The notes under the pieces were generated by a model. It saw only the letters and a list, made by a program, of their open reading frames with translations. It ran no database searches and was not told the DNA's origin. Of a stretch of DNA of 39,528 nucleotides, positions 7,411 to 30,581 are shown piece by piece. Position 1 is the stretch's first letter; each line of letters begins with the position of its first letter. Made by a program: the position numbers and the translations under genes. This stretch comes from Bacillota bacterium (GTDB lineage Bacteria > Bacillota > Dehalobacteriia > UBA4068): positions 1 to 39,528 of the forward strand of contig JAFSHU010000136.1 of assembly GCA_017440145.1 (NCBI GenBank). Direction: 5' to 3'.

Positions 7411-7803
7411 ATGCAGGATTATCAAGTGATACCGATCACGGCTGCGGATGTGGTCCCCACTGCGGAGCAGATGCGGGCAGCCGGCCGGATGCTGATCATG
7501 ATTCATGGATATGTGAATAAAGATGGGCAGAAGGTCGTTTCTTATGAGTACGCTACAGATAAAGGCATTGCTTCTTACTCTGTCACCGGCGCCGATGCCC
7601 TGCCGACGATTTCTACGATTTATTCCACAGCCGCTGAATGGCCCGAACGGGAGCTGAACGAACTGATCGGGGTGGAGTTTACCGGGCTGGATACCTCCGT
7701 CCGCCTTTTCCTTCCGGATAATCTGCTGGAGGGGAATGGCCAGATCATGGTCACCCCCCTGGAGGAACTGCGGGCAAAAAATGTAGAGGCGAAGGAGAAA
7801 TAG
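7411..7803 (+). CDS. hydrogenase 30-kDa subunit (NuoC/EchD/MbhK-like)
   Basis: A 130-residue protein of the complex I 30-kDa (NuoC) family, first gene of the hydrogenase operon. The diagnostic segment is around residues 70-100: TAAEWPERELNELIGVEF followed by LFLPDNLLEG, equivalent to the E-W-x-E-R-E-x-x-D/E-x-x-G-V-x-F and LPD blocks of NuoC, EchD and MbhK. The role is structural: it packs against the large subunit in the peripheral arm and carries no cofactor. GAGGTG precedes the start. The large-subunit gene begins two bases after its stop, so the two are surely co-translated. By position and size it corresponds to MbhK of Pyrococcus furiosus. Confidence 0.85.
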   Translation: MQDYQVIPITAADVVPTAEQMRAAGRMLIMIHGYVNKDGQKVVSYEYATDKGIASYSVTGADALPTISTIYSTAAEWPERELNELIGVEFTGLDTSVRLFLPDNLLEGNGQIMVTPLEELRAKNVEAKEK

Positions 7804-7804
7804 T

Positions 7805-8887
7805 ATGACGTATACCATACCCATCGGTCCTTATCATCCGGCTTTGGAAGAGCCGGTTCATGCAAAGCTTTATACGGATGGCGAGATCATCTCTGATGCC
7901 GAGGTCTTTGTGGGCTATAACCATCGCGGCATCGAAAAGCTTGCCATGGAGCGGAATTTTATTCAGACCATCGTTCTGGTGGAACGGGTCTGCGGCATCT
8001 GCTCCCATTCTCATGCTCTGGATTATGCCATGTGTGTGGAGCGCATCGCTCAGATGGATGTTCCCCGCCGCGGTCAGTATATCCGCGTTATCATTGCGGA
8101 GCTGGAACGCCTGCATTCCCATTATCTCTGGCTGGGAATTGCCTGCCATTTGCTGGGGCATGACAGTCTTTTCATGCGCATCTGGGATGAGCGGGAAGTC
8201 ATCATGGATATGCTGGAGAAGCTCAGCGGCAACCGTGTCAATTACGGCATGGTGATCCCCGGCGGTTCCCGCCGGGATGTGAACGACAGCCAGCGGCAGG
8301 AGCTGCTGGAGCTGCTGGAGCATATTGTTCCTCCGGTAGACCGGATCAAAGATATTTTGCTGAACGATAAAACGGTAGCCATGCGTACCCAGGGCGTTGG
8401 CGTGCTCACTACGGAGGATGCCCTGCGTCTGGGCGCTATTGGCCCCCACGCCCGGGCTTCCAATGTGAAGATCGATGTGCGCCGGGACATGCCCTATTGC
8501 TGCTACGATGAATTCGATTTTGATGTTCCCGTGTGGGAAAGCGGTGATGTCTTCGCCCGTGTGGTCATTCGCGTTCTGGAATGCTATGAAAGCGTGAAGA
8601 TCATTCGGCAGGCTTTGGAGAATCTGCCAGAAGGCCCCATCAATCTGGGCAATAAAATTCCCAGGGTGCCGGCTGGAGAGGTCGTTTCCCTGCATGAAGC
8701 TCCCCGTGGGCAGTTGGTCTATAAGCTGGTCACCGATGGCGGCCCCAATAACCACCGCCTGAGCATCCATGTTCCCACCTTCCGGAATGCGCCCACCATC
8801 CCCACCATGCTGCGGAACAATACGGTGGCGGATGCCGGCCTGATCATCGCCAGCATCGACCCCTGCTTCTCCTGCCTGGATCGTTAA
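7805..8887 (+). CDS. group 4 [NiFe] hydrogenase large (catalytic) subunit, MbhL-like
   Basis: A 360-residue catalytic subunit that reduces protons to H2 at a NiFe(CN)2CO centre. The L1 motif ERVCGICSHSH gives Cys63 and Cys66; the L2 motif DPCFSCLDR gives Cys354 and Cys357, so all four nickel ligands are present, which separates it from NuoD. The protein ends exactly at the Arg of L2, so there is no C-terminal peptide for a maturation protease to remove; CooH-like group 4 enzymes are known to lack it. The N-terminal PIGPYHPALEEP and NHRGIEKLAMERN blocks are typical of the 49-kDa/large-subunit superfamily. hypA begins four bases after its stop. Confidence 0.95.
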   Translation: MTYTIPIGPYHPALEEPVHAKLYTDGEIISDAEVFVGYNHRGIEKLAMERNFIQTIVLVERVCGICSHSHALDYAMCVERIAQMDVPRRGQYIRVIIAELERLHSHYLWLGIACHLLGHDSLFMRIWDEREVIMDMLEKLSGNRVNYGMVIPGGSRRDVNDSQRQELLELLEHIVPPVDRIKDILLNDKTVAMRTQGVGVLTTEDALRLGAIGPHARASNVKIDVRRDMPYCCYDEFDFDVPVWESGDVFARVVIRVLECYESVKIIRQALENLPEGPINLGNKIPRVPAGEVVSLHEAPRGQLVYKLVTDGGPNNHRLSIHVPTFRNAPTIPTMLRNNTVADAGLIIASIDPCFSCLDR

Positions 8888-8891
8888 GCCT

Positions 8892-9233
8892 ATGCATGAG
8901 TTAGCCATCACAGAAAGCATCCTCCGCATTGCGCTGGAGGCAGCAAAGGAAAATCAAGCCAAAAAAGTTCTGGAGATCCGCATCAGGATCGGCGCCTATT
9001 CTGGGGTCGTTCCCCAGTATATCCAGGAGTATTTCAATATCGTCAGCCAGGGCAGCATTGCGGAAAAGGCCCGGCTTTCGATCGAGACCATCCCCGCCAG
9101 AGTGGAATGTGCAGCCTGCGGCGAGATTACGGAGGTACAGCGTTTCCGCATCAAATGCGGCGCTTGCGGCAGCACGGATGTGAAGCTGCTGAGCGGGCGG
9201 GAATATTATGTGGACAGCTTGGAGGTGGAGTAA
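8892..9233 (+). CDS. hypA: hydrogenase nickel-insertion protein HypA
   Basis: A 113-residue HypA. With HypB it inserts nickel into the hydrogenase large-subunit precursor. The N-terminal MHE motif, whose His2 is part of the nickel site, is intact. A zinc domain carries two CxxC pairs: Cys73/Cys76 (CAAC) and Cys89/Cys92 (CGAC). Length is normal. It sits inside the structural operon directly after the large subunit rather than in a separate hyp cluster, so maturation factor and substrate are made from one message. Its stop codon is immediately followed by the hypB start. Confidence 0.95.
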   Translation: MHELAITESILRIALEAAKENQAKKVLEIRIRIGAYSGVVPQYIQEYFNIVSQGSIAEKARLSIETIPARVECAACGEITEVQRFRIKCGACGSTDVKLLSGREYYVDSLEVE

Positions 9234-9893
9234 ATCGAGATCAAAGTTGTAAAGCAGATCCTGGAATGGAATGAGGATCGCAGCAAAGAGATTCAGGATG
9301 ACCTGTCCCGGAAAGGCGTTTTCTTCATCAATGTGATGGGTTCTCCCGGGGCAGGGAAGACCAGCACGATCGTGGAGCTGATCCAGCGGCTGCGCAGCAG
9401 ATACCGTGTTGGTGTCATCGAAGGAGATATCGCCGGGCAGATCGACGCAGAGAAGATCGATGCCCTGGGCATTCCCGTGGTGCAGCTGAACACAGAGGGC
9501 GCCTGCCACATCGAGGCCATGTCCATCCAGCACATTCTGGGCTATTTTGATCTGGCAGAGATCGATGTGCTCTTTGTGGAGAATATCGGCAATCTGGTCT
9601 GCCCCGCAGAATTCAATATCGGGGAGGACCTCCGTTTGGCGATTCTCAGCGTGCCGGAGGGGGATGACAAGGTGGATAAATATCCGCTGATGTTCGCCAC
9701 CACTGATGCGCTGTTGCTGAATAAATTCGATATGAAACCCTACTTTGACTTTGATGACCAGAAGGTGGAAGCCAGCGCGAAAGAGATTAACCCGGATGTT
9801 GCTCTTTTCCGCGTATCTGCTCGCAGCGGTGAAGGCTGTCAGGAGCTGACAGATTGGCTCTGCCGGAAAATTGATGCCAAGCTGGCGAAATAA
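9234..9893 (+). CDS. hypB: hydrogenase nickel-incorporation GTPase HypB, apparent AUC start
   Basis: A 219-residue SIMIBI GTPase that drives nickel delivery with HypA. P-loop GSPGAGKT at residues 36-43; ENIGNLVCPAEFNIGED near residue 120 holds the conserved metal-site Cys; LLNKFD is the guanine-specificity motif. No His-rich nickel-storage tail is present. The first ATG/GTG/TTG in frame is GTG 9333, inside the P-loop strand, and would remove a conserved N-terminal helix. The frame is open to 9234, where ATC follows the hypA TAA directly and lies six bases after GGAGGTG. The encoded start IEIKVVKQILEWNED looks like a normal HypB N-terminus with ATC in place of ATG. This is either a rare AUC start or a base error. 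Confidence 0.85.
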   Translation: MEIKVVKQILEWNEDRSKEIQDDLSRKGVFFINVMGSPGAGKTSTIVELIQRLRSRYRVGVIEGDIAGQIDAEKIDALGIPVVQLNTEGACHIEAMSIQHILGYFDLAEIDVLFVENIGNLVCPAEFNIGEDLRLAILSVPEGDDKVDKYPLMFATTDALLLNKFDMKPYFDFDDQKVEASAKEINPDVALFRVSARSGEGCQELTDWLCRKIDAKLAK

Positions 9894-9914
9894 ACCCCCT
9901 ACGGAGGTGAGAAT

Positions 9915-10436
9915 GTGCCTAAGACCAAGTTTTTTTCTGTAATTGTGACCTTCCTTGTCTGTTATCTTTTCTGGATCCTGATCACCTGGTCTCTGAATAT
10001 TGAAGAGCTGATCGCCGGTGCGGTGGTCTCCCTGCTGGTGGCTTTGTTTGCTTCCCGTTTCTTTATCCACACCGGGAAAATGCGTATGGCGAACCCGATT
10101 CGTCTTTTCTCCCTGATCTGGTACTGCCTGGTGATCTTCATGGAAGAGCTGGCGAAAGCCAACTGGGATATGGCCAAGCGCGTCTTTTCCCGGGGGCCGA
10201 ATATCAACCCGGGGATCGTGAAGGTTCCCGTGGATGTGCATTCGGAATACGGTCTTTCCATGCTGGCCAATTCCATCACCATGACGCCGGGTACCATTAC
10301 CATGGATATCGTGGAAGAGGATGGCAGGAATTATTTTTACATTCACTGGATTGATGTGGCGGATGGACGACCGGAAGAGGCCGGCGAGATCATCAAGGGC
10401 CGTATGGAAAAATGGACAAGGAGGATCTGGGAATGA
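9915..10436 (+). CDS. Mrp-type antiporter subunit E homologue (MbhA-like)
   Basis: A 173-residue MrpE-family membrane protein. Two or three hydrophobic segments occupy the first 80 residues, then a soluble tail containing ELAKANWDMAKRV and SMLANSITMTPGTITMDI, both strongly characteristic of MrpE/MnhE. It starts at GTG, with GGAGG seven bases before. In Mbh hydrogenases the equivalent subunit (MbhA) belongs to the Na+-translocating arm. The stop overlaps the ATG of the next gene (ATGA). A free-standing Mrp antiporter would also need a large MrpA, which is absent here. Confidence 0.9.
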   Translation: MPKTKFFSVIVTFLVCYLFWILITWSLNIEELIAGAVVSLLVALFASRFFIHTGKMRMANPIRLFSLIWYCLVIFMEELAKANWDMAKRVFSRGPNINPGIVKVPVDVHSEYGLSMLANSITMTPGTITMDIVEEDGRNYFYIHWIDVADGRPEEAGEIIKGRMEKWTRRIWE

Positions 10437-10687
10437 TCGAATTCATTATTGTTGGCATTTTCTTCGTCCTGCTTGCCCTCTGCCTGACCTGGCGGCTGTA
10501 TAAAGGCCCCAGCGTGGTGGATCGGGCGCTCTGCGCGGACTGCATCGAAAACCTTTGCGCCTGTGCGCTGATTATGGTGGCGCTCTTCACCGGCCGCAGC
10601 ATTTACCTGGATGTATCCCTTGTTGTTTCTATTCTGGGCTTTGTCAGCACCGTACTTGTAGCGAAATATCTGGAGGGAACACTGTGA
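10433..10687 (+). CDS. Mrp-type antiporter subunit F homologue (MbhB-like)
   Basis: An 84-residue protein with three hydrophobic segments and the MrpF block LYKGPSVVDRALCADCIEN near residue 25 followed by a segment ending GFVSTVLVAKYLEG. The start at 10433 has AAGGAGG upstream and overlaps the subunit E stop. MrpF/MbhB is a small integral subunit of the ion-translocating arm. It overlaps the next gene by one base. Confidence 0.9.
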   Translation: MIEFIIVGIFFVLLALCLTWRLYKGPSVVDRALCADCIENLCACALIMVALFTGRSIYLDVSLVVSILGFVSTVLVAKYLEGTL

Positions 10688-11040
10688 TGCTGATCTTACG
10701 TATTCTCATCGACGTTTTGCTGGTCGGGGGCTGCTTCTTTGCCTTGGCCGGAACCCTGGGCGTTCTGCGGATGCCCGATAGCTTCAGCCGGATGCAGGCC
10801 AGCACCAATATTCCTACCTTTGGGCTGCTGGGCATTGTATTGGCTGCATTGCTGTATGCAATTTTTATGGAACATAACGCCGCCATGGCGGTGAAGGTTC
10901 TGATCATCGGCGGCTTTGTGCTGCTAACCAACCCCATCGTGGGCAATACCTTATCCCGGGCTGCCTATAAATACGGCATTCGGCCGAAAAAGCCGATGGT
11001 TCAGGATGATTACGGGAGGGATGAAGCGGATGAGCGGTAG
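10687..11040 (+). CDS. Mrp-type antiporter subunit G homologue (MbhC-like)
   Basis: A 117-residue MrpG/MnhG-family protein with three membrane segments. The family signature GTLGVLRMPDSFSRMQASTN lies near residues 22-42, and a TNPIVGNTLSRAAYKYG segment precedes a charged tail. The ATG overlaps the subunit F stop; a GTG one codon earlier is also possible. With E and F it forms the EFG block found in both Mrp antiporters and Mbh hydrogenases. Confidence 0.92.
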   Translation: MLILRILIDVLLVGGCFFALAGTLGVLRMPDSFSRMQASTNIPTFGLLGIVLAALLYAIFMEHNAAMAVKVLIIGGFVLLTNPIVGNTLSRAAYKYGIRPKKPMVQDDYGRDEADER

Positions 11041-11293
11041 CGGCGTTGTTGTACTGAATACCCTGGTGATTCTTGCCATCGTGATTTGCGCGGTGCTCAC
11101 TGTAAGCAGCAAAAAATTGCTCTCCTCCGTGGTTTGCCTGGGTGCGACGGGTGCCTTTGTTGCTTTGGAGTTCATCATCCTCCAGGCGCCGGATGTGGCC
11201 ATTGCCGAAGCCGCTGTGGGCGCGGTTCTGTCCACCGCTTTGTTTGTGATCGCCCTGCGAAAAGTGAGAGCCAAGGAGGAGGATGAGGAATGA
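11030..11293 (+). CDS. MbhD-like subunit (DUF4040, MrpA C-terminal homologue)
   Basis: An 87-residue membrane protein of the DUF4040/MbhD type, homologous to part of the C-terminal region of MrpA. Three hydrophobic segments are visible, with VSSKKLLSSVVCLGATGAFV and QAPDVAIAEAAVGAVLSTAL as the typical core containing the conserved P-D-V-A-x-x-E motif. Two in-frame ATGs (11021 and 11030) are possible; the second is better spaced from GGGAGGG. Its presence as a separate small gene is a marker of Mbh/Mbs-type complexes rather than plain Mrp. Confidence 0.85.
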   Translation: MSGSGVVVLNTLVILAIVICAVLTVSSKKLLSSVVCLGATGAFVALEFIILQAPDVAIAEAAVGAVLSTALFVIALRKVRAKEEDEE

Positions 11294-11655
11294 TGAAAAA
11301 ATATTTCGCTTTTCTTTCCCTGCTTGTGTTTTTGCTGGCCGGCCTTTGGGCTGCCGCGAATCTGGTAGAGCTGGGCCCCACCTATGATGGTTCTGATACG
11401 GACGTGACAGAGCTTTACGAAAATCCGCAGGACTACGATGTTTCCGATCCGGATGGCGTTGCGGATATCATCGTCCAGGAGAATCTGGCGCTGACCAATT
11501 CTGCCAACGCAGTCACCGCAGTGGTCTTCGATTTCCGTGGTTACGATACCATGGGTGAGGCCTTCATCCTCATCACCGCCATCGCCGGTTCCATGGCGAT
11601 CCTGCGGAAAGCAAAGAAAGGGGGCTCTGCCAATGGCCAGCAAAAAGCGGATTAA
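11290..11655 (+). CDS. MbhE-like subunit
   Basis: A 121-residue protein with an N-terminal membrane segment, a short extracytoplasmic acidic stretch, and a second membrane segment containing NAVTAVVFDFRGYDTMGE. That V-V-F-D-F-R-G-Y-D-T block is the hallmark of MbhE and of the homologous MrpA C-terminus/MrpB N-terminus. It overlaps MbhD by four bases (ATGATG) and overlaps the start of the following MrpB-like gene by about 20 bases. It completes the split-MrpA arrangement expected of an Mbh complex. Confidence 0.85.
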   Translation: MMKKYFAFLSLLVFLLAGLWAAANLVELGPTYDGSDTDVTELYENPQDYDVSDPDGVADIIVQENLALTNSANAVTAVVFDFRGYDTMGEAFILITAIAGSMAILRKAKKGGSANGQQKAD

Positions 11656-12133
11656 GCGCAGCAATCTGCTGCTGAAGAACGCAGCGGATTTCTTCACACC
11701 CTTTGCGCTCGTGCTGGGGCTCTCCGTGGTGCTTCATGGGCATCTGACCCCGGGCGGCGGCTTTCAGGGCGGGGTTCTGGTGGCTTCCGCGGCCATCCTG
11801 CTCTTCTTGGGCTATGGCTGGGATGTGACCAACAAATCCCTGAAAATGGACATGCTGAAAAAGAATGAGGCTTTCGCAGCGGTGCTCTATGTGGGCCTGG
11901 CGCTGGCTGGTTTGCTTGCAGGAAGCTATTTCTGCCGCAATATCTTTTTCGCCAATGGTGAAATCGGCCAGCTGCTCTCTGCCGGTACGGTTGCCTTCAT
12001 GAACGTGACCGTGGGCTATAAGGTCATGACCGGCGTGGGCTTTTTGCTCCTCCTGATGCTGGGCCTCCTGGCTCAGCCGGATGAAGTGGAAGAGGATGCG
12101 GAAGAGGAGGGCTGCGCAGATGATCATTGCTAA
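11633..12133 (+). CDS. Mrp-type antiporter subunit B homologue (MbhF-like)
   Basis: A 166-residue MrpB/MnhB-family membrane protein with about four hydrophobic segments. The signature HGHLTPGGGFQGGVLVA is near residue 35. The ATG at 11633 lies inside the end of MbhE; no start nearer the conserved region fits better. The C-terminus is very acidic (EVEEDAEEEG). It corresponds to MbhF. Confidence 0.92.
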   Translation: MASKKRIKRSNLLLKNAADFFTPFALVLGLSVVLHGHLTPGGGFQGGVLVASAAILLFLGYGWDVTNKSLKMDMLKKNEAFAAVLYVGLALAGLLAGSYFCRNIFFANGEIGQLLSAGTVAFMNVTVGYKVMTGVGFLLLLMLGLLAQPDEVEEDAEEEGCADDHC

Positions 12134-12470
12134 TTATATCGGCGCTGTGCTGCTGATGTTCCTGGGTTTATATACCATCATCATGAAGAAGCATCTGATC
12201 AAGATTGTTATGGGGATGTGCCTGATGGATTATGGTGTAAACCTGCTCATCGTCAGCATCGGCTTCAACCCCGGGGGGACCGCCCCGATCTTCACCATCT
12301 CCGAGCTGGATCCCGGCGCATTCTTCGTGGATCCTGTTCCCCAGGCGCTGACCCTGACCTCCATCGTCATCGGCGCCTGCGTAATGGCTATGGCTCTGTC
12401 CATCGTCATTAAAATCAAACAAAAATATAAGACCTTGGATGCAGGTCGGATCAGGAGGTTGAACGGATGA
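12120..12470 (+). CDS. Mrp-type antiporter subunit C homologue (NuoK/MbhG-like)
   Basis: A 116-residue NuoK/MrpC-family protein with three membrane helices. The segments IIMKKHLIKIVMGMCLMDYGVNLL and PQALTLTSIVIGACVMAMAL are diagnostic (quoted in part). The start at 12120 has GAGGAGG upstream and overlaps the subunit B stop. NuoK-like subunits form part of the proton/sodium path next to the large antiporter subunit. The stop overlaps the start of the next gene by four bases. Confidence 0.92.
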   Translation: MIIANYIGAVLLMFLGLYTIIMKKHLIKIVMGMCLMDYGVNLLIVSIGFNPGGTAPIFTISELDPGAFFVDPVPQALTLTSIVIGACVMAMALSIVIKIKQKYKTLDAGRIRRLNG

Positions 12471-14383
12471 TACAGCATTTCCCCATCCTCTCTATTATGA
12501 GCCTGTTTCTGGGTTCCTTTTTGATCGTGATTTTCGGCGGAAAAAATCGCTTTATCCGGAACAGCCTGGCTGTTTTGTTTTCCGCCATTCCCCTGGTGCT
12601 CATCTGCTGCCTGATCAAACCCATCCTGATTGATGGGGAGATCTTCAGCTACTGGATGGGTGACTGGGAGCCGGTTTCCGGCTTCGCCATCGGCATCGGC
12701 CTGGAGGTGGATGCTTTAAGCCTCTTCTTCGCTCTCCTGGTGGTGCTGACCATCTTCTTGGCGGCCGTGTTCTCTTTGAAATACATGAGTCGCGATGATG
12801 CGCTGGACAAATACTACACCCTCTTCCTGATGCTGGGCGGCGGTGTGCTGGGTCTGGTGCTTTCCGGCGATCTTTTCAACATGTATATCATGGTGGAGAT
12901 CCTGACCTTTGCTTCTGTGGCTTTGACTGCTTTCCGGAACTGGGGCAAAGGATCTTTGGAAGCGGCCTTCAAGTATCTGGTGGTTGGTTCCATCGGCTCT
13001 GCCTTCATTCTGACCGGCGTGATTTTGATTTACGCGCAGGTGCATACTCTGAGCCTGGCGCAGATTTCCGCCCTGTTGGCTACAGAGGGTCTGACCCCGG
13101 CCACGATTTTTGGTTTTGCCCTGCTTTTTGCCGGTTATGCGACGAAAGCCTATATCGTCCCCTTCCACCCGGTGGCAGCGGATGCCTATATGACTGCGCC
13201 GTCTTCCATCTCCATGGTGTTCTCCGGTATGGTAAACAAAGCGGGGATCTATGGTATGATCCGCCTGGTCTATATGGTGTTCCAGGCCATGAGCCAATCG
13301 GCGATGCAATACATTATTGTGATTCTGGGCTGCCTGACCATGTTCATTGGTGTGACTATGGCCCTTTCCCAGCATGATTTCAAACGCCTGCTGGCTTTCC
13401 ACAGCATTTCCCAGATCGGTTATGTGCTGACAGCTGTGGGTCTGGCCACGGCGCTGGGCATCAGCGGCGGTTTGTATCACGCGCTGAACCATACTTTGTT
13501 CAAAGGTCTGCTCTTCCTCTGTGCCGGTGCCGTTTTCTACAGCGTTGGCAGCACGGATCTGGATAAGCTGGGCGGCCTGGCGAAGAAAATGCCGCAGACC
13601 ACCATTATTTTCCTGATCGGTGCTTTTTCCATCAGCGGTCTACCGCCTTTCAACGGCTTTATGTCCAAATGGATGATCTACCAGGCCGCCTATGAAAAGG
13701 CAGCTCTGGAAGGCAGCTTCTTCTATGCTTTGGTCACCATCGTGGGGCTTCTGGTCAGCGTGCTGACCCTGGCTTCCTTCATCAAAGTGACCCAGTCTGT
13801 TTTCTTCGGGCAGCTGGCTCCCGGCTGCGAGAAGGCAAAAGAGGTTCCGTTTTCCATGCGCTGGCCCATGTGGCTTATGGCTATCCTCTGTGTGCTTACC
13901 GGCCTCTTCCCGGGCTTTGTCAACCGCTATCTGGTGGTGCCGGCAAGCGCTGCGGCCATCGATACCACCGGCTACATTGATGCCATGATGGGTGCGGGCT
14001 ACGGGCAGCAGCTCGGCCTTTCCCCGGAAACGGCCCTGTCTCTGGAATATGAGCTGACAGGCTACTGGGATCCCATCGCCTGGCTGGTTCTTTTCGTTGT
14101 CCTTCTGGCGGGGCTGATGATTTCCCTGGGCCTGGGGAAAGCCTCCCGCGGGCCTGTCCGCCGTCCTGTTCCGGCAGACCCCAAATACGATACCTTCTTC
14201 GGCGGGGAAGCCAGCCAGCATTCCCATGTGGGCGGTTCTGATCTGTTCTGGGGCCTGAAGCATAACCTGCGCCACTATTTCCGTTTCATGCATAGCATGC
14301 ACAGCGGTGTGGTCAATGATTATGCCCTTTGGACGGTGGCCGGCACTGCTGTCATCATCCTGTTCATGATCCTGTTTCTTTAG
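12467..14383 (+). CDS. Mrp subunit D-like antiporter subunit with C-terminal MbhI-like extension
   Basis: A 638-residue NuoL/M/N-family antiporter subunit with about 14 membrane helices. The key Glu of the fifth helix is visible in MYIMVEILTF (Glu144), and the central Lys region in YATKAYIVPFHPVAADAY and FKGLLFLCAGAVFY. MrpD and MbhH are usually about 500 residues. Here about 130 more follow: a membrane segment near residue 550, a polar stretch with KYDTFFGGE and MHSGVVNDYALW, and a last membrane helix. Two helices joined by a long linker is the layout of MbhI, which has no separate gene here, so this is probably an MbhH-MbhI fusion. Confidence 0.88.
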   Translation: MIQHFPILSIMSLFLGSFLIVIFGGKNRFIRNSLAVLFSAIPLVLICCLIKPILIDGEIFSYWMGDWEPVSGFAIGIGLEVDALSLFFALLVVLTIFLAAVFSLKYMSRDDALDKYYTLFLMLGGGVLGLVLSGDLFNMYIMVEILTFASVALTAFRNWGKGSLEAAFKYLVVGSIGSAFILTGVILIYAQVHTLSLAQISALLATEGLTPATIFGFALLFAGYATKAYIVPFHPVAADAYMTAPSSISMVFSGMVNKAGIYGMIRLVYMVFQAMSQSAMQYIIVILGCLTMFIGVTMALSQHDFKRLLAFHSISQIGYVLTAVGLATALGISGGLYHALNHTLFKGLLFLCAGAVFYSVGSTDLDKLGGLAKKMPQTTIIFLIGAFSISGLPPFNGFMSKWMIYQAAYEKAALEGSFFYALVTIVGLLVSVLTLASFIKVTQSVFFGQLAPGCEKAKEVPFSMRWPMWLMAILCVLTGLFPGFVNRYLVVPASAAAIDTTGYIDAMMGAGYGQQLGLSPETALSLEYELTGYWDPIAWLVLFVVLLAGLMISLGLGKASRGPVRRPVPADPKYDTFFGGEASQHSHVGGSDLFWGLKHNLRHYFRFMHSMHSGVVNDYALWTVAGTAVIILFMILFL

Positions 14384-14397
14384 GGGAGGTGCGTGAA

Positions 14398-15351
14398 ATG
14401 CAAATATTGCTTGATTTGTTTTATGTGCTGATTTTCCCCGGGTTCCTCTTCTGCGCTGTGGTGGGGCTGCTGCTGGCCGGCATTGACCGAAAGATTGTGG
14501 CCCGTATGCAGAAGCGCATGGGCCCCCCCATCGTTCAGCCCTTCTATGATTTCTTTAAGCTGCTGGGCAAGGAAACCATCATTCCCCATGCAGCCTCCAG
14601 AGGCGTTTTCATCGCAGCCCCTCTGCTGGGTCTGGTCTCTTTGGTGGTGATGGCCCTCTTTATCCCGGTCTTTGGCTTCACGGCCTTCAGCGGCGTGGCG
14701 GATCTGATCGTCATTCTCTACCTGCTGACCATTCCTGCGGCTGCGATCATCGTTGGCGGCGCGGCTTCCGGTTCTCCTTATGCCGGTGTGGGTATCTCCC
14801 GAGAGATGGTTGCCATTGTCGCCTATGAGCTGCCGCTGATCATCGTTCTGCTGACCGTGGGCAAAAAGGCAGCTCTGGATGGTGGCATTACCTTCTCATT
14901 TACGGAGATTCAGGCTTACCAGGCTGAATTCGGCTCCATGCTCAGTCACTGGAGCATGATCCCCGCTGCCGTTGCCATGCTGCTGGTGATCCCCAGCGAG
15001 GTTGGCAGCCATCCCTTTGATGTGGCGGAAGCCGAAACAGAGATCTGCGAAGGCCCCCTGGTGGAATACAGCGGCTCTTTGCTGGGCATCTATAAACTGA
15101 ATCATGCCATCAAGATGTTCATCCTCACCGCATTGTTTGCCGCACTTTTCCTGGGCGGCGCGGGAAGCGGCATCCTGATTGTGGATGTGCTGCTGCTTCT
15201 GCTCATCTGCACTGTGGTAACGATCCTTTCCATGTCTCTGCCGCATGCCATCAGCGCCCGCCTGAAAGTAGAGAAGATGTTTAAATTCTACTGGACGCTG
15301 GTTACGGTATTGGCGGTGATCAGCCTGGTTCTGGTTTGGATGGGCTTTTAA
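14398..15351 (+). CDS. NuoH-like membrane anchor subunit (MbhM/EchB-like)
   Basis: A 317-residue membrane protein of the NuoH family, which anchors the hydrogenase arm and links it to ion pumping. The N-terminal block ARMQKRMGPPIVQPFYDFFK, the central SREMVAIVAYELPLI and the acidic loop HPFDVAEAETEICEGPLVEY are conserved landmarks. GGGGAGGTG lies just upstream of the ATG at 14398. Position between the antiporter subunit and the small subunit matches its bridging role. About eight hydrophobic helices are visible. Confidence 0.93.
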   Translation: MQILLDLFYVLIFPGFLFCAVVGLLLAGIDRKIVARMQKRMGPPIVQPFYDFFKLLGKETIIPHAASRGVFIAAPLLGLVSLVVMALFIPVFGFTAFSGVADLIVILYLLTIPAAAIIVGGAASGSPYAGVGISREMVAIVAYELPLIIVLLTVGKKAALDGGITFSFTEIQAYQAEFGSMLSHWSMIPAAVAMLLVIPSEVGSHPFDVAEAETEICEGPLVEYSGSLLGIYKLNHAIKMFILTALFAALFLGGAGSGILIVDVLLLLLICTVVTILSMSLPHAISARLKVEKMFKFYWTLVTVLAVISLVLVWMGF

Positions 15352-15405
15352 TCGGCAGGCGGAAGCGCTGCTTTGTTTCTCAAGTCTCTGATAAGGAGAG
15401 TGCTT

Positions 15406-15846
15406 ATGTTCAAAAAGATCATCGACAACAGCATGGCAAAATCCCCCTGGATTTATCATATCAATACGGGCTCCTGCAATGGCTGCGATATCGAATTGGT
15501 CTCGGTCATCACGCCCCGTTATGATGCGGAGCGCATGGGCTTTAAGCTGACCGGCACCCCCAGACATGCGGATATCGTGGTGGTCTCCGGCCCTGTCACT
15601 TCCCAATCCAAGGAGCGTTTGGTTCGGACACTGGCCCAGGTACCGGAACCCCGGGTGATCGTTTCTCTGGGCTCCTGCCCCCGTCCCTGCAATGTGTTTA
15701 AGGGCAGCTATTCCGTGGAGGGTCCTCTGGATAAGTTTTGCGAGGTGGATGTGTCTGTAGCAGGCTGCACGCCGAAGCCGGAAGCCATCATCGACGGCCT
15801 GGCCCTGGCGGCACAGATTTTAAAAGAGAAGAGGAGGCAGAAATAA
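15406..15846 (+). CDS. group 4 [NiFe] hydrogenase small subunit (MbhJ/EchC/NuoB-like)
   Basis: A 146-residue electron-transfer subunit that carries one [4Fe-4S] cluster next to the NiFe site. The four ligands are visible: Cys24 and Cys27 (GSCNGCDIE), Cys91 (GSCPRPC) and Cys121 (GCTPKPEAI). Most relatives have GCPP-x-PEAI at the last site; here Thr replaces the first Pro. The size is right for the compact group 4 type, which lacks the extra domain of uptake hydrogenases. AAGGAGAG precedes the ATG. It overlaps the ferredoxin gene by one base. Confidence 0.94.
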   Translation: MFKKIIDNSMAKSPWIYHINTGSCNGCDIELVSVITPRYDAERMGFKLTGTPRHADIVVVSGPVTSQSKERLVRTLAQVPEPRVIVSLGSCPRPCNVFKGSYSVEGPLDKFCEVDVSVAGCTPKPEAIIDGLALAAQILKEKRRQK

Positions 15847-16319
15847 TGGGTCTTCCTTTTATCAAAGAAGCAATTACGCAGCTTTTCAGCAAGCCCAGCA
15901 CGGAGAAATATCCCCTGGTGAAAAAGGAGGTCAGCGATGGCTTCCGCGGGAAGCTGGTTTTTCATCCGGAGCTTTGCATCAACTGTGGGATGTGCATGCG
16001 TGTCTGCGCGCCCCAGGCCATTACCCGCACGATTGAAAAAACAGAAGAGGGGGACAGGATCACCATGGAATTCCACATGGGTTCCTGCACCTTCTGCAGC
16101 ATGTGCGCGGATTTTTGCTCCAAGAATTCCATTGAGCTGAGCAAGGAATACTCCATGGTCGTCACGAACGAGGATGATCTGAAGGTTCGCGGCAGCTTCA
16201 TTAAGAAGGCGCCCCCCAAAAAGGAGCTGAGCCCGGAGCAGCTGGCCAAGCTGAAAGCAGCGAAGGCTGCTAAAGATGGAAAAGCGGAGGAGGAATTTGA
16301 TTCCTGCCCGGATGCATAA
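15846..16319 (+). CDS. 2[4Fe-4S] ferredoxin-type subunit (MbhN/EchF-like)
   Basis: A 157-residue polyferredoxin subunit that takes electrons from ferredoxin and passes them to the small subunit. Two CxxCxxCxxxC/P motifs give Cys44, 47, 50, 54 and Cys81, 84, 87, 91, the NuoI/EchF pattern. The last 35 residues are an unusual Lys/Ala/Glu-rich tail (QLAKLKAAKAAKDGKAEEE) beyond the folded domain. The ATG at 15846 has GAGGAGG eight bases upstream and overlaps the small-subunit stop. It is the last gene of the operon; a strong terminator follows 14 bases later. Confidence 0.93.
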   Translation: MGLPFIKEAITQLFSKPSTEKYPLVKKEVSDGFRGKLVFHPELCINCGMCMRVCAPQAITRTIEKTEEGDRITMEFHMGSCTFCSMCADFCSKNSIELSKEYSMVVTNEDDLKVRGSFIKKAPPKKELSPEQLAKLKAAKAAKDGKAEEEFDSCPDA

Positions 16320-16332
16320 TTTTGTCTGTAAG

Positions 16333-16365
16333 GCAGCTCGCTGATTTTCAGCGGGCTGCTTTTTT
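16333..16365 (+). terminator. terminator of the hydrogenase operon
   Basis: GCAGCTCGCTGA (16333-16344) pairs with TCAGCGGGCTGC (16348-16359), with one G-U pair, and is followed at once by six T residues. It is a textbook intrinsic terminator 14 bases after the ferredoxin stop. Confidence 0.9.
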
Positions 16366-16506
16366 ATCCGAAGGCTGTACCTCAGTTCAGACGGCAGAAA
16401 AGCTTCTCCGCAGAGGAAACCCTTTTTAAGAATAGCTATTTCTTTTCGGTTTTTCTTGCGTGTTTTATGGGAGTTCAGTATAATAAAATGGAAGGGAGGC
16501 TGACAC

Positions 16507-17148
16507 ATGGAACAAATCATATTTTCTTTTTTGGCGAAGCCCCTGGAAAAGGAAGAGCTTCTGCCGCAGCTGAGCCGTGCTCTGGAAAAACGTACCCAGC
16601 TGCTTTCCCGGGAGAAAATACCTGGTATCTGGGCCCTGACGGATCGCCTGAATGCCGTGGAAAAAGCGCCGGAAGCCGTTTTGCGCAGCCGCCGTATTCG
16701 CAGCCGCATCTGGGGCGTGATTTGCCTGCTGCTGGGGATTTTTCTTTTTGTTCCCGGCCTGATGAAGCCACAGGAGCTGCTGGGTCCCCTGCTGATGGGC
16801 GCCATCGCCATTGGCGCCGGGATCGGTGCCTTTTTCCGTGGACGAAAACGGAAGCGGAATCCCTTTGATAAGGCTGCTGCCCGCCTGCTGGAGCAGGGGA
16901 AAGGCGATATTCCCGGCAGCCTGCCGGAGTTCCGCTTTTCTTCCGAAGCCCTGTGCATCTTTGCGGAGGGAAAGGAGCAGGAGTGCATTCCCTACGCGGA
17001 TTTTGAGTTCGTTTTTGAAACGGAGGATCTCTTTCTTTTGACCTATCGGGAGAAGATCACTGCGCTCCACAAAGAAAGCATAAGCAGCGGCAGGATCGAG
17101 GATTTCCACAGCTTCCTGCAGGAAAAATGCCGTTTTCACAGGGTATGA
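16507..17148 (+). CDS. membrane protein with YcxB-like C-terminal domain
   Basis: A 213-residue protein with no assigned function. A soluble N-terminal part of about 65 residues is followed by two closely spaced hydrophobic helices (GVICLLLGIFLFVPGLM and LLGPLLMGAIAIGAGIGAFF) and a cytoplasmic tail after a basic RGRKRKRN stop-transfer. The tail (FSSEALCIFAEGKEQECIPYADFEFVFETEDLFLL) has the pattern of the YcxB-like domain, a small PH-like beta fold found in many Firmicute membrane proteins. AAGGGAGG precedes the ATG. It stands alone between two terminators, so it is probably its own transcript. Confidence 0.75.
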   Translation: MEQIIFSFLAKPLEKEELLPQLSRALEKRTQLLSREKIPGIWALTDRLNAVEKAPEAVLRSRRIRSRIWGVICLLLGIFLFVPGLMKPQELLGPLLMGAIAIGAGIGAFFRGRKRKRNPFDKAAARLLEQGKGDIPGSLPEFRFSSEALCIFAEGKEQECIPYADFEFVFETEDLFLLTYREKITALHKESISSGRIEDFHSFLQEKCRFHRV

Positions 17149-17170
17149 AAATAGAATCAGAATACAACAA

Positions 17171-17200
17171 AAGCAGAGTATCTCAGATACTCTGCTTTTT
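17171..17200. terminator. bidirectional terminator
   Basis: AAGCAGAGTATC (17171-17182) and GATACTCTGCTT (17186-17197) form a perfect 12-bp stem with a TCA loop, with a T tract on the plus strand and A-rich sequence before it. It separates the rightward YcxB-like gene from the leftward DUF3887 gene and can serve both. Confidence 0.88.
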
Positions 17201-17247
17201 GTGTGCGTTTAACACCAGGGAGAGCCCCGGATGCAGCTTCGGTCTGT

Positions 17248-17658
17248 TTACTTCATATAAAGGCCGATCAAATCCATATTTTCATCGAAGGTGATGGTGA
17301 AGGTCCGCTTCCCATCTTCAAATTTCGCCAGCACCATAGTCATGGCGTAGTTTTCCTCTCCGTCCGCGCTTTTCTGCCCGGCTGAAGCTGTGGCCCGGAA
17401 TTTTTCGAATTCACCGTTCTCATCCAGCATGGCATCCAGCTGGGAGGCCAGATATTCCGGCGTCAGCTCTGCGGACAGATCCTCCCGAAACATGCTGCAG
17501 ACCACATCATAATTCCGGCTGATGACCAGCATAGCCACTTCCTCTGCCTTCGCCTGAACCTGCGCTTCATCAAAGCAATCTGCCAGAGCATTCTCAGAGC
17601 AGGCGCTGCAGCTTAAAAGAGCAAGGAGCAGCAGAAGAATCAAAGTGAATTTTTTCAT
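17248..17658 (-). CDS. DUF3887-like lipoprotein
   Basis: A 136-residue exported lipoprotein. The signal peptide MKKFTLILLLLLALLSCSAC ends in a lipobox with lipidated Cys20. The rest, with ISRNYDVVCSMFREDLSAELTPEYL and a final beta-rich stretch (RTFTITFDENMDLIGLYMK, quoted in part), matches the DUF3887 fold, a small NTF2-like domain of unknown role that often modulates cell-surface proteins. GAAGG lies upstream of the ATG. It is the last gene of the leftward run that begins with the flavodoxin-like gene, 43 bases after the XRE-desulfoferrodoxin gene. Confidence 0.72.
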   Translation of the reverse strand: MKKFTLILLLLLALLSCSACSENALADCFDEAQVQAKAEEVAMLVISRNYDVVCSMFREDLSAELTPEYLASQLDAMLDENGEFEKFRATASAGQKSADGEENYAMTMVLAKFEDGKRTFTITFDENMDLIGLYMK

Positions 17659-17701
17659 GGTGCAGACCTTCCTTCTTTAGTTATAGTCGTTTCCTCTTTG
17701 T

Positions 17702-18286
17702 TTAATAGCGCAGACGGAACAGGCCATGCTGATTGCAGTAGATATAAAACCAGCCGTGTCCATTCCGCGGAAAGCGCAGATCAATCCCCTGTTCCGGGTA
17801 CATGCGTTGCAGGAACAGGCTGCCCCCGGTCACATAGGCGATGAAAGAGATAAAGTGTTCCTTTTCCATGGGGTGCTCCATATGCACATAAAGCCCACCA
17901 TCCATATATTCCACGCTGGGCAGATGTTCTCCTTCTGCTTCCGCGGGCGTCAGAGCCTCCAGGGTTTTCCCGCAGCAGGAGATTGCTGCCGGGCCGCTGG
18001 AAGCAAGGATATTGCCGCAATCCGGGCAAACATAGAATCTGCTTCTTTTCATATTTCCTCCGTCCTGTTGATTTTTGGGCAGCTCGCCGGATAGCAGGTC
18101 TTCCAGCCGCAGCCCCAGCAGACGGGAGACCTCTCCCGCCAGGGGAAGGTCGGGGCAGCCGCAGCCCCTTTCCCATTTGCTGACAGCTTGGGCCGTAACA
18201 GACAGGCGTTCTGCCAGCTGCTGCTGTGTATAGCCTGCTTTTCGTCGAGCCTCGGCGATGAGGGCACCGATTTTCTTCTGATCCAT
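17702..18286 (-). CDS. XRE-family regulator fused to a complete desulfoferrodoxin
   Basis: A 194-residue protein. Residues 5-65 are a Cro/C1-type helix-turn-helix (TQQQLAERLSVTAQAVSKWE). Residues 84-112 match the desulforedoxin-like centre I with Cys87, Cys90, Cys104 and Cys105. Residues 119-194 match superoxide reductase centre II: His121 (EHLPSVE), His138 and His144 (HPMEKEHF), Cys184 and His187 (CNQHGLF), which are all five iron ligands. In superoxide reductases a catalytic Lys precedes the first His (E-K-H); here it is Glu120 (G-E-H). This suggests iron-based sensing of superoxide or redox state rather than catalysis. The start has AGGAGGT upstream. The gene lies between DUF3887 and alkD-like genes. 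Confidence 0.88.
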   Translation of the reverse strand: MDQKKIGALIAEARRKAGYTQQQLAERLSVTAQAVSKWERGCGCPDLPLAGEVSRLLGLRLEDLLSGELPKNQQDGGNMKRSRFYVCPDCGNILASSGPAAISCCGKTLEALTPAEAEGEHLPSVEYMDGGLYVHMEHPMEKEHFISFIAYVTGGSLFLQRMYPEQGIDLRFPRNGHGWFYIYCNQHGLFRLRY

Positions 18287-18401
18287 CCGCTCAACACCTC
18301 CTGAAAGCATTGTAAGCTGTCCTTTGCCTGCAGACAAGCAACGCTTCGTTGAATCCATACTGATCCTGGCTTCCCGGAGAAAGCCGGGAATCTCTTTCTG
18401 T

Positions 18402-19082
18402 CTAACGACGCAGCCCCCGCAGGGTTTCTTTTCGTTCCTCCGGGATGCGCCTGCTTTCAATGGCCTTCTGAATGGATTTGTTATGCAGCCATTTGTCCAG
18501 CCTTTTCTGCTGAAAAAGGGGCAGGGTGCTTTCGTATTGGCTGGCCAGGGCATAACTCATATACCAGGCAATGGCCATGTTGATATAATACTCCTCCCGC
18601 CCTAAGCAGGCCAGCAATTCCAGGCTTTCCGGCCGAAACTCTGCACCCAGGTAAAATTTCAGCAGTACATCAATGGCGAAACGCACCGTATAGCAATGGG
18701 GGCTCTGCAGCCATTCCAGACATTTTTCGTAGACGGGGTCGGGGTATCTGGCAAAAATCCGGATGGAGAGTGTGTCGCAGGTGGCCCAGTTGTCCACATG
18801 GGGAAGAAAGGCCTCCAGCAGGGAGAAGCTCTGGGGCAGATCTTTGCAGATGCTGTTCAGCAAAAGGGCATGGAGCTGGTTCTCGTCATAAAAGGAATGG
18901 GGCAGAGCTTCCAAAAATGCAGCTCTGCGCGAATCATTCAGCAAGGTTTTTGCATAGGCCCTTAGCCGAGGCATGCGCACGCCCAGAATCCGCTCCGGCG
19001 GTAAATTCGGGATGAGCCTTGCCTGAAAGGCGGCATAATCCGCATCCCGCAGAGCCTGCAGCTCCCGAAGAATGCTTTCCAT
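18402..19082 (-). CDS. AlkD-like DNA alkylation repair protein
   Basis: A 226-residue all-helical protein of the DNA-alkylation-repair (AlkD/COG4912) HEAT-like repeat family. AlkD is a DNA glycosylase that removes bulky or positively charged alkylated bases without flipping them. The block HVDNWATCDTLS near residue 95 holds the conserved Trp and Asp of the family, and RFAIDVLLKFYL and YYINMAIAWYMSYALA follow as later repeats. Length is normal. It begins one base before the stop of the YbjQ-like gene, so the two are co-transcribed. Its position upstream of the redox-sensor-like gene suggests a small stress-response group. Confidence 0.88.
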   Translation of the reverse strand: MESILRELQALRDADYAAFQARLIPNLPPERILGVRMPRLRAYAKTLLNDSRRAAFLEALPHSFYDENQLHALLLNSICKDLPQSFSLLEAFLPHVDNWATCDTLSIRIFARYPDPVYEKCLEWLQSPHCYTVRFAIDVLLKFYLGAEFRPESLELLACLGREEYYINMAIAWYMSYALASQYESTLPLFQQKRLDKWLHNKSIQKAIESRRIPEERKETLRGLRR

Positions 19083-19083
19083 C

Positions 19084-19404
19084 TCAGCGAACCAGAACCG
19101 CTGTGCCGGTGGCGGTGACCATCAGCATGCCGTTGTTGCTTCCCAGCACCTCATAATCAATATCCACGCCCACCACGGCGTTGGCGCCCAGCTGCTGCGC
19201 GCGCTTGCTCATTTCAGAAAGGGCGGCTTCCCGGGCCTGGATCAGTTCATTCTCATAGGAGCCGGAGCGCCCTCCGAATATATTGGAAATGCTGGCGGTG
19301 AAATCTTTGATGAAATCGATGCCGGAGATGACTTCCCCGGAAACTATGCCGAAATACGTGCTGATGGGGTGTCCTTCGATCGTTGGCGTAGTGGTGATGA
19401 GCAT
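19084..19404 (-). CDS. YbjQ/UPF0145 family protein
   Basis: A 106-residue YbjQ-type protein, a small oligomerising domain sometimes called heavy-metal-binding, with no firm biochemical role. Recognised by [18 protein letters not shown] at the start, then [18 protein letters not shown], and [16 protein letters not shown]. Nearly all of the protein is conserved family sequence. The ATG at 19404 has AGGAGG upstream; an open extension to 19512 does not resemble the family. It lies between the flavodoxin-like and AlkD-like genes on one leftward transcript. Confidence 0.92.
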
Positions 19405-19438
19405 GGCTTTCCCTCCTGAATTCATTTTGTCTAAGGGG

Positions 19439-19954
19439 CTATTCTGCCTGCCGGGTTTGATGCAGGTCGTGCAGGATTGCCTCCAGTGCAGAGGGATCCA
19501 CGCGATCTCCACCCTTTTCCAGCAAAAGCAGGGTATCCCGGTCTGCTTCGCTCAGTTCTTTTTTCTCCTCGATTTGCTTGTGAAGCGACTTGCAGACGAT
19601 TTTCATGATCCACTTCTGCGGCCCTCGCAGCTTCTCCATTTTCAGGCCGCCCTGCAGATAGAACAGCTGCGGATAGGCTGCCTGGTAGCGCTTTCTCAGC
19701 TCCCGGAGCTGCGTTTCCACCGCCGGAGCCAGTCCCACAGCGCAAAGGATGCTGATGCGATAGCGTCTGACAGCCTGCCTAAGTCCTGTTATCTGCCCGG
19801 CCTGCAGCCAGCCCAGATAGATGATCTCTGTCTGCGGAGCCAGTGCTTTTTTTGCTTCTTTCAGCCCATAAACGGGGAGCGCAGCTTTTTCTCCCAAAAG
19901 ACGGGCATAGCGTGCCGTGAAACCGGTGTTCGATGTGTAAACGATGGCTTTCAT
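19439..19954 (-). CDS. flavodoxin-domain protein
   Basis: A 171-residue protein with a flavodoxin fold. The first strand and phosphate loop are [18 protein letters not shown], in which the T-S-N-T-G-F-T run would bind FMN phosphate; [19 protein letters not shown] resembles the second FMN loop of the protoporphyrinogen-oxidase-like flavodoxins. The last 60 residues are basic and helical ([20 protein letters not shown]). The partner is unknown. It heads the leftward run with YbjQ and AlkD-like genes, with a spacing of about 35 bases. Confidence 0.8.
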
Positions 19955-20045
19955 TCGTATTCCTCCCGGAAGGATATGCCTTCAGCATAGCACATTTCTG
20001 AGGAAATCACAATCGAATCCCCTTGGACCTGTAGCCCTGGGCTTA

Positions 20046-20706: not shown

Positions 20707-20751
20707 CTGGTATGTTTATATAATCAATTATGAAAAAAAGAAGCATACCAG
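20707..20751. promoter_or_regulatory. inverted repeat and promoter between the ECF and PdxR-like genes
   Basis: A perfect 8-bp inverted repeat, CTGGTATG (20707-20714) and CATACCAG (20744-20751), flanks a 29-base AT-rich centre that contains TATAAT at 20719-20724 for the regulator gene. On the minus strand TATAAT near 20694-20699 is a probable -10 for the ECF gene. The repeat is well placed to be the operator through which the MocR protein controls both genes. Confidence 0.55.
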
Positions 20752-20762
20752 AGGAGGCCCGG

Positions 20763-30537: not shown

Positions 30538-30581
30538 GAATTCATTGAGAATGACTTAAAATGGATAGGAAGCAGCAGCTT

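Follow-up and report, generated by a model that had tools for sequence, protein, structure and literature searches.

The window examined here, the whole 39,528-nt contig JAFSHU010000136.1 from the metagenome-assembled genome (MAG) GCA_017440145.1 of a fermenting Bacillota bacterium (Dehalobacteriia; UBA4068), carries a cluster of 15 genes between positions 7411 and 16319 with counterparts of all subunits of the Mbh hydrogenase of Pyrococcus furiosus and two genes for nickel insertion. We consider it likely that the products of this operon assemble into a single membrane complex, an Mrp-linked energy-converting [NiFe] hydrogenase that would be driven by ferredoxin and would most likely export Na+. 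Its catalytic genes are split around an ion-pumping arm, and this split is the standard layout of a clostridial gene family. Judged by sequence comparison, only the arm and the antiporter subunit H appear clearly Mbh-like, whereas the catalytic core leans towards the Coo enzymes.

All 15 open reading frames (ORFs) lie on the + strand in the order K-L-hypA-hypB-A-B-C-D-E-F-G-H-M-J-N, with intergenic gaps of -23 to +54 nt, and were identified by their Pfam and NCBIfam domains (Table 1). These results bear out the genes, order, strand and coordinates named in an earlier note on this DNA. All the subunit counterparts that it listed are present, but it overlooked MbhI, which is found as the C-terminus of the MbhH ORF. 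The close packing of the genes and a strong terminator after N are both consistent with a putative single transcript from K to N. When folded separately, the terminator hairpin had a z-score of -5.23, and none of 200 shuffled sequences was equally stable; the general terminator scan did not list it. That scan and the promoter scan of the window yielded no single convincing site, and their totals, about two standard deviations over the shuffle means (promoters 14 vs 8.1, terminators 20 vs 12.1), were not used as evidence. Scanning the window against Rfam produced no match.

The same arrangement recurs widely. The loci considered are the 80 best of 573 relatives detected in GTDB species genomes; 73 of the 80 belong to the clostridial clade and form, with the window, the surveyed set of 74, while the other seven (L116-L121 and L123) were not counted. 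The 73 loci (L identity 59-93%, some cut by contig ends) come from rumen and gut MAGs of Oscillospiraceae and Lachnospiraceae, from Clostridium species, from Oceanirhabdus and from Caloramator fervidus, named carriers including Clostridium paraputrificum, C. tepidiprofundi and Caloramator fervidus. Sixty of the 74 have the full run of genes between hypA and J, and every one of these 60 reads L-hypA-(hypB)-A-B-C-D-E-F-G-H/I-M-J; hypB was found in 30 of the 74 loci and K was located after N in three. The order had at first been taken for a rearrangement of the Mbh operon, a view that the survey contradicts: because all complete loci share it, the split of the catalytic genes is the family standard, and a rearrangement unique to the window is ruled out. 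Shared by dozens of gut, rumen and free-living Clostridia, this gene order appears to be the usual one in an enzyme family that has received little study. Recurrence in 73 other loci, together with mostly synonymous substitutions between the window L and that of a sister genome (109 synonymous and 25 non-synonymous codons), also rules out chance ORFs.

The ligand and ion-path residues are intact and conserved across the family alignment. In the large subunit L, Cys63 and Cys66 are present in 74/74 rows and Cys354 and Cys357 in 72/74, the other two having gaps; J retains four cluster cysteines in 60/60 rows, and N the eight cysteines of two 4Fe-4S motifs in 59/59. Along the ion path, Asp36 of B falls in our own alignment at the position of D35 in MrpF and MbhB (Asp in 70/70), Glu63 of D corresponds by alignment offset to MbhD E69 (Glu in 70/70), and G has Asp37 as in MBH, Asp37 and Asn41 each occurring in 66 of 67 rows (one gap). 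Subunit H has Glu144 in 65/65 rows and Lys227, Lys258 and Lys401 in 62-63 of 65. In excerpts of a study of the Mrp structure, Mrp and MBH are argued to share a Na+ path, for which D35 of MrpF/MbhB, MbhD E69 and MbhG D37, H41 and N34 are named (PMC7419157). The best PDB match of L, J and H is 6cfw, the P. furiosus MBH, and no Coo enzyme is among the PDB matches listed.

We infer the electron donor, direction, ion and coupling of the complex as follows. Reduced ferredoxin would pass electrons to the two clusters of N, then to the J cluster and the Ni-Fe site of L, where protons would be reduced to H2. The NuoH-like M and the antiporter unit formed by the H-I fusion would relay the small redox energy released to the A-G arm, and this arm would move cations out of the cell, likeliest Na+. 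Nickel would be inserted by HypA and HypB, encoded inside the operon; as L is synthesized without a C-terminal extension, it probably requires no cleavage there. The initial proposal of ferredoxin-driven H2 evolution coupled to Na+ or H+ is kept, as a prediction. The host lends circumstantial support: the MAG contains an RnfC match, three matches to Fe_hyd_lg_C ([FeFe]-hydrogenase) and a V-type ATPase c subunit (L202, G000:C46) with the pattern GTQ...AQG...E, which we take to be that of the Na+ site of Enterococcus NtpK and which suggests Na+ bioenergetics in this organism. The window hypA is the sole HypA match in the MAG, and HypD is encoded on contig C110, with HypC, HypE and HypF read from ORFs, beside a second hydrogenase.

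The ancestry of the catalytic core was addressed with trees on chosen subsets (L, 44 rows; L+J+M, 45 rows, with P. furiosus represented without M), in which the Coo, Ech, Hyc and Nuo labels of reference rows were assigned by us from gene content and motifs and sampling of HydDB group 4d was thin and partly without names. L+J+M was preferred because L alone gave a weaker placement (82/93). In the combined tree the clostridial set is recovered at 100/100 and groups with Coo, two Anaerolineae and a bacterial lineage whose clusters begin with K-L at 96/97, P. furiosus stands apart with locus L194 (100/98), and Ech forms a separate clade (100/100). The Coo-side grouping stays, at 97/90, when four long rows are dropped, and a clade of the clostridial and Coo rows alone then has 80/43. 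An approximately unbiased (AU) test rejected a single clade of all Mrp-armed enzymes (p 0.0069). Two characters agree with this placement: L lacks a C-terminal extension, and an I-like domain is fused within the CooM of L034; the missing tail is not diagnostic alone, as Ech also lacks one. We conclude that the core leans to a lineage, mostly of bacteria, to which Coo also belongs. With moderate confidence, it does not clearly belong to the archaeal Mbh clade (HydDB 4d), its catalytic subunits lying apart from P. furiosus MbhL and MbhJ without being firmly excluded from their company; the contrast between core and arm is likewise moderate. The L and L+J+M trees rule out membership in Ech or Hyc, and the large subunit groups with neither Ech nor Hyf, a grouping that the earlier note had named as fatal to its reading. 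Its description of the enzyme as a plain Pyrococcus-type Mbh is not supported, the evidence against it again being moderate (p 0.0069 against p 0.076 for the grouping described next).

Several findings weigh against the reading advanced here. The AU test did not reject a clade uniting the clostridial set, the K-L-first lineage, L194 and P. furiosus (p 0.076); the Coo-side clade was not recovered in a tree of M alone and was weak (67) with J alone. In 13 loci that are complete in other respects (e.g. L051, L057 and L066) no NuoC-like K was found, and a permissive search of eight K-less loci still found none. For N, 6cfw_N is not the top PDB match. G has Asn41 in place of MBH His41 and Cys34 in place of MBH Asn34 (position 34 being variable in the family), and its cation site is therefore predicted to be similar, not identical, to that of MBH. 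The MAG, of 1.59 Mb, is 84% complete.

The Asn41 deviation in G is also among the grounds for supposing that the same complex runs mainly in reverse, spending the ion gradient to reduce ferredoxin with electrons from H2, or that it pumps H+. Three [FeFe]-hydrogenase matches and RnfC would allow H2 and ferredoxin to flow both ways, and group 4e is called physiologically reversible in excerpts of the HydDB paper (PMC5037454). The acids of the Na+ path are, however, kept in B, D and G, and the host c subunit carries what we take to be a Na+-type motif, and we consider such a reversed or H+-pumping enzyme somewhat unlikely.

More doubtful still is the history implied by the earlier note, in which a true archaeal-type Mbh (HydDB 4d) entered Clostridia and its gene order was rearranged. 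Counterparts of all of MbhA-N including I are present, H is nearest to the MbhH of the archaeal-layout cluster L188 (40% identity, 19 proteins compared), and the AU test tolerates the clade with L194 and P. furiosus. Against this stand the position of P. furiosus with L194, the clostridial clade on the Coo side in both versions of the L+J+M tree, the rejection of a single Mrp-armed clade, and the end of L. The window L stops at DPCFSCLDR; tail length is zero in 71/73 relatives (the other two are truncated) and also in the Coo, Anaerolineae and K-L-first rows, whereas tails of 23 and 42 residues occur in the archaeal-layout loci L188 and L194, respectively. As a tentative account of the mismatch between core and arm, Mrp-armed hydrogenases may have arisen repeatedly or swapped modules, the clostridial enzyme joining a Coo-side core to an Mbh-type Na+ arm independently of archaeal Mbh (or Coo having lost the arm).

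That the arm is an integral part of the hydrogenase was already proposed in the earlier note from the separate MbhD and MbhE and the absence of a full MrpA, features that the ORFs and domains confirm: there is one antiporter-type subunit, and neither the N-terminal half of MrpA nor a full-length MrpA is present among the cluster ORFs. In the arm tree of A-G (25 rows), three stand-alone Mrp operons are set apart from the hydrogenase arms with 100/100 support, and the clostridial arm is sister to that of the K-L-first lineage (90/93). The antiporter subunit is fused to MbhI, the C-terminal match to 6cfw_I strengthening with a 21-sequence profile (Table 1), and H and I form one ORF in 63/63 surveyed loci in which both were found. 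An AlphaFold model of the H-I protein (pLDDT 81.5, pTM 0.86) has 6cfw_H as its best PDB match (E 1.5e-27), with a linker at residues 557-593 of pLDDT <50. An independent Mrp antiporter merely sharing the operon would account for the Mrp-family profiles that match A, B, C and F; set against the arm tree, which rules out a neighbouring stand-alone Mrp, the D/E and H-I arrangements and the order common to the 60 complete loci, it is highly improbable. A sulfane-sulfur reductase like Pyrococcus MBS, or another complex I-like enzyme that is not a hydrogenase, is hardly credible: B, D and G reach slightly better scores with 6u8y (MBS) than with 6cfw, but L favours 6cfw_L over 6u8y_L by a wide margin, the cluster itself contains hypA and hypB, and both [NiFe] CxxC motifs of L are intact, which rules the reductase out.

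Set beside known systems, the window resembles P. furiosus Mbh (PDB 6CFW; HydDB 4d) in having all subunit counterparts by domain, with PDB matches for L, J, H, I, B, D, G and N, a single antiporter subunit, separate D and E, and the ligand and most ion-path residues. It differs in placing K-L first and M-J-N last, in the hypA and hypB inside, in the fusion of I to H and in the clade of its core. The P. furiosus mbh genes presumably run from A to N, an order seen in L188 and L194 and departed from in the window. The PDB chain 6cfw_L, which does not display the end of the P. furiosus precursor, ends at the same residue as the window L. Closer in layout is the K-L-first lineage (L118, L178, L179, L181 and L183), which reads K-L-A-B-C-D-E-F-G-H-M-J-N and has a tailless L and the sister arm; it differs in lacking internal hypA and hypB (several kb upstream in L179-L181 and L183) and in its larger H (1,021-1,049 aa), which carries an additional antiporter module ahead of the I-like end and is possibly a two-pump variant.

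The Coo loci (HydDB 4c; L034, L035 and L184, named from gene content) share with the window an L of similar length, a place in the wider core clade that also holds Anaerolineae and the K-L-first lineage and, in L035 and L184, hypA after L; the C-terminus of the L034 CooM aligns with window H through the I domain, its I-like domain being fused to the last antiporter module. Unlike the window, they have no Mrp arm and a multi-module CooM of 1,271-1,291 aa, L034 and L035 continue with genes read as cooF and cooS, and the L1 motif in both is CSLCSNNH; neither a multi-module CooM nor an adjacent carbon monoxide dehydrogenase is among the 15 genes of the window cluster. Ech (HydDB 4e) likewise has a ferredoxin-type N subunit and, in several loci, hypA and hypB nearby, but is a six-subunit core without the A-G arm.

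Within the operon, hypB has no ATG, GTG or TTG upstream of 9333, a position already within its conserved N-terminus, which starts at the ATC of 9234-9236. In the sister genome and several relatives the start codon is ATG, and the ATC of the window is either an unusual start codon or an error in the sequence.

Table 1. Genes, domains and terminator of the hydrogenase operon in the window (contig C79 of the MAG), with profile and PDB matches.
Feature	Position	Strand	Evidence
MbhK-like (NuoC/30 kDa-type) subunit, 130 aa	7411..7803	+	PF00329 5.3e-9
MbhL-like [NiFe] catalytic subunit, 360 aa	7805..8887	+	PF00346 1.4e-72, PF00374 1e-13; 6cfw_L 2.9e-82
HypA nickel metallochaperone	8892..9233	+	PF01155; TIGR00100 1.3e-28, above cut-off
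HypB nickel-insertion GTPase, 219 aa	9234..9893	+	TIGR00073 1.7e-69, above cut-off; apparent ATC start
MbhA (MrpE-like)	9915..10436	+	PF01899 2.6e-42
MbhB (MrpF-like)	10433..10687	+	PF04066 1.1e-13; 6u8y_B 1.5e-11, 6cfw_B 2.2e-10
MbhC (MrpG-like)	10687..11040	+	PF03334 7.3e-21
MbhD	11021..11293	+	PF13244 9e-21; 6u8y_D 1.4e-14, 6cfw_D 2e-11
MbhE	11290..11655	+	PF20501 6.5e-7, above cut-off
MbhF (MrpB-like)	11633..12133	+	PF04039 1e-22
MbhG (MrpC/NuoK-like)	12120..12470	+	PF00420 2.9e-24; 6u8y_G 5.4e-29, 6cfw_G 3.8e-24
MbhH (MrpD-like antiporter subunit), N-terminal ~511 residues of 638-aa ORF	12467..13999	+	PF00361+PF00662; 6cfw_H 9.4e-89 over 14-511
MbhI domain, last ~127 residues of MbhH ORF	14000..14383	+	6cfw_I 7.9e-8 single sequence, 1.2e-12 profile
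MbhM (NuoH-like membrane anchor)	14398..15351	+	PF00146 2.6e-63
MbhJ small subunit, four cluster Cys	15406..15846	+	PF01058 3e-24; 6cfw_J 2.8e-48
MbhN, two 4Fe-4S clusters (8 Cys), likely ferredoxin entry	15846..16319	+	PF00037/PF12838; 6cfw_N 3.4e-15
Strong intrinsic terminator after mbhN	16330..16366	+	15-pair hairpin + T run, -24.7 kcal/mol

Outside the window, the MAG encodes a second group 4 [NiFe] large subunit on contig C110 (L040, G000:C110:1-20000, ~11,723-19,999, and L041, 280-1707), of 408 aa with the motifs RVCGICSHTH and DPCYSCTDR and a 47-residue tail. Its cluster is complex I-like, with antiporter-type subunits and J-, K-, A-, B-, C-, D-, H- and I-like ORFs followed by a HycI-type protease, and hypE-D-C-F lies nearby; it resembles, here in Clostridia, the archaeal 11-subunit Hfo complex as described in excerpts of PMC7886697. 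Of 18 same-family genomes, 15 have a match to the window L that belongs to this C110 type or is related to it. One long-branched relative of the C110-type subunit (L030, G019) contains neither [NiFe] cysteine motif by the patterns used, and may perhaps belong to a complex that no longer has hydrogenase activity, or be a damaged gene. A further Mrp-armed cluster on a long branch, L192 (G453), reads M-J-K-L, a separate 612-aa antiporter subunit, a fused D/E ORF, F-G-H-A-B-C and N. Elsewhere in the window, a single ORF at 30561-32768 fuses a group 1 glycosyltransferase to a polysaccharide pyruvyl transferase in a cell-wall polysaccharide locus that includes an O-antigen-ligase-type protein at 34537-36180, and at 20730-22187 a GntR domain is fused to an aminotransferase domain, presumably a MocR-type regulator.

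In excerpts of the HydDB paper, group 4d is ferredoxin-coupled and Mrp-linked and the function of 4g is unresolved (PMC5037454). Excerpts of PMC7886697 describe 4g as heterogeneous and uncharacterised and report all Mbh subunits, in another order, in Thermosphaera (subgroup 4g-5), and Mrp-linked 4g hydrogenases are reported in Cloacimonadota and Omnitrophota (PMC8542988, in part). These systems resemble the clostridial operon, by description only, in combining an Mrp or MbhABCF module with a group 4 hydrogenase, and differ in phylum. Our literature search found no description of the clostridial operon in its listings, and with subscription papers, including a 2010 clostridial hydrogenase survey, outside its scope we do not call the operon undescribed. 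According to the consulted part of a sheep rumen survey, Clostridium 4g enzymes are functionally unresolved and shared with groups 1b and 1d the highest expression levels of all hydrogenases (RNA/DNA >10; PMC6776011). It is plausible that this rumen Clostridium class is the clostridial family described here, which includes rumen MAGs and Clostridium strains.

If so, the operon predicts for that class the export of Na+ from ferredoxin with H2 as the product, which would mean an extra energy yield for fermentations that feed H2 to methanogens, and the evolution of complex I would gain a bacterial Mrp-armed branch beside that of Pyrococcus. Should the Coo-side core and the Mbh-type arm indeed have been combined independently of archaeal Mbh, the family would represent a second way of linking the oxidation of ferredoxin to the export of Na+, one that is widespread among the Clostridia of gut and rumen.

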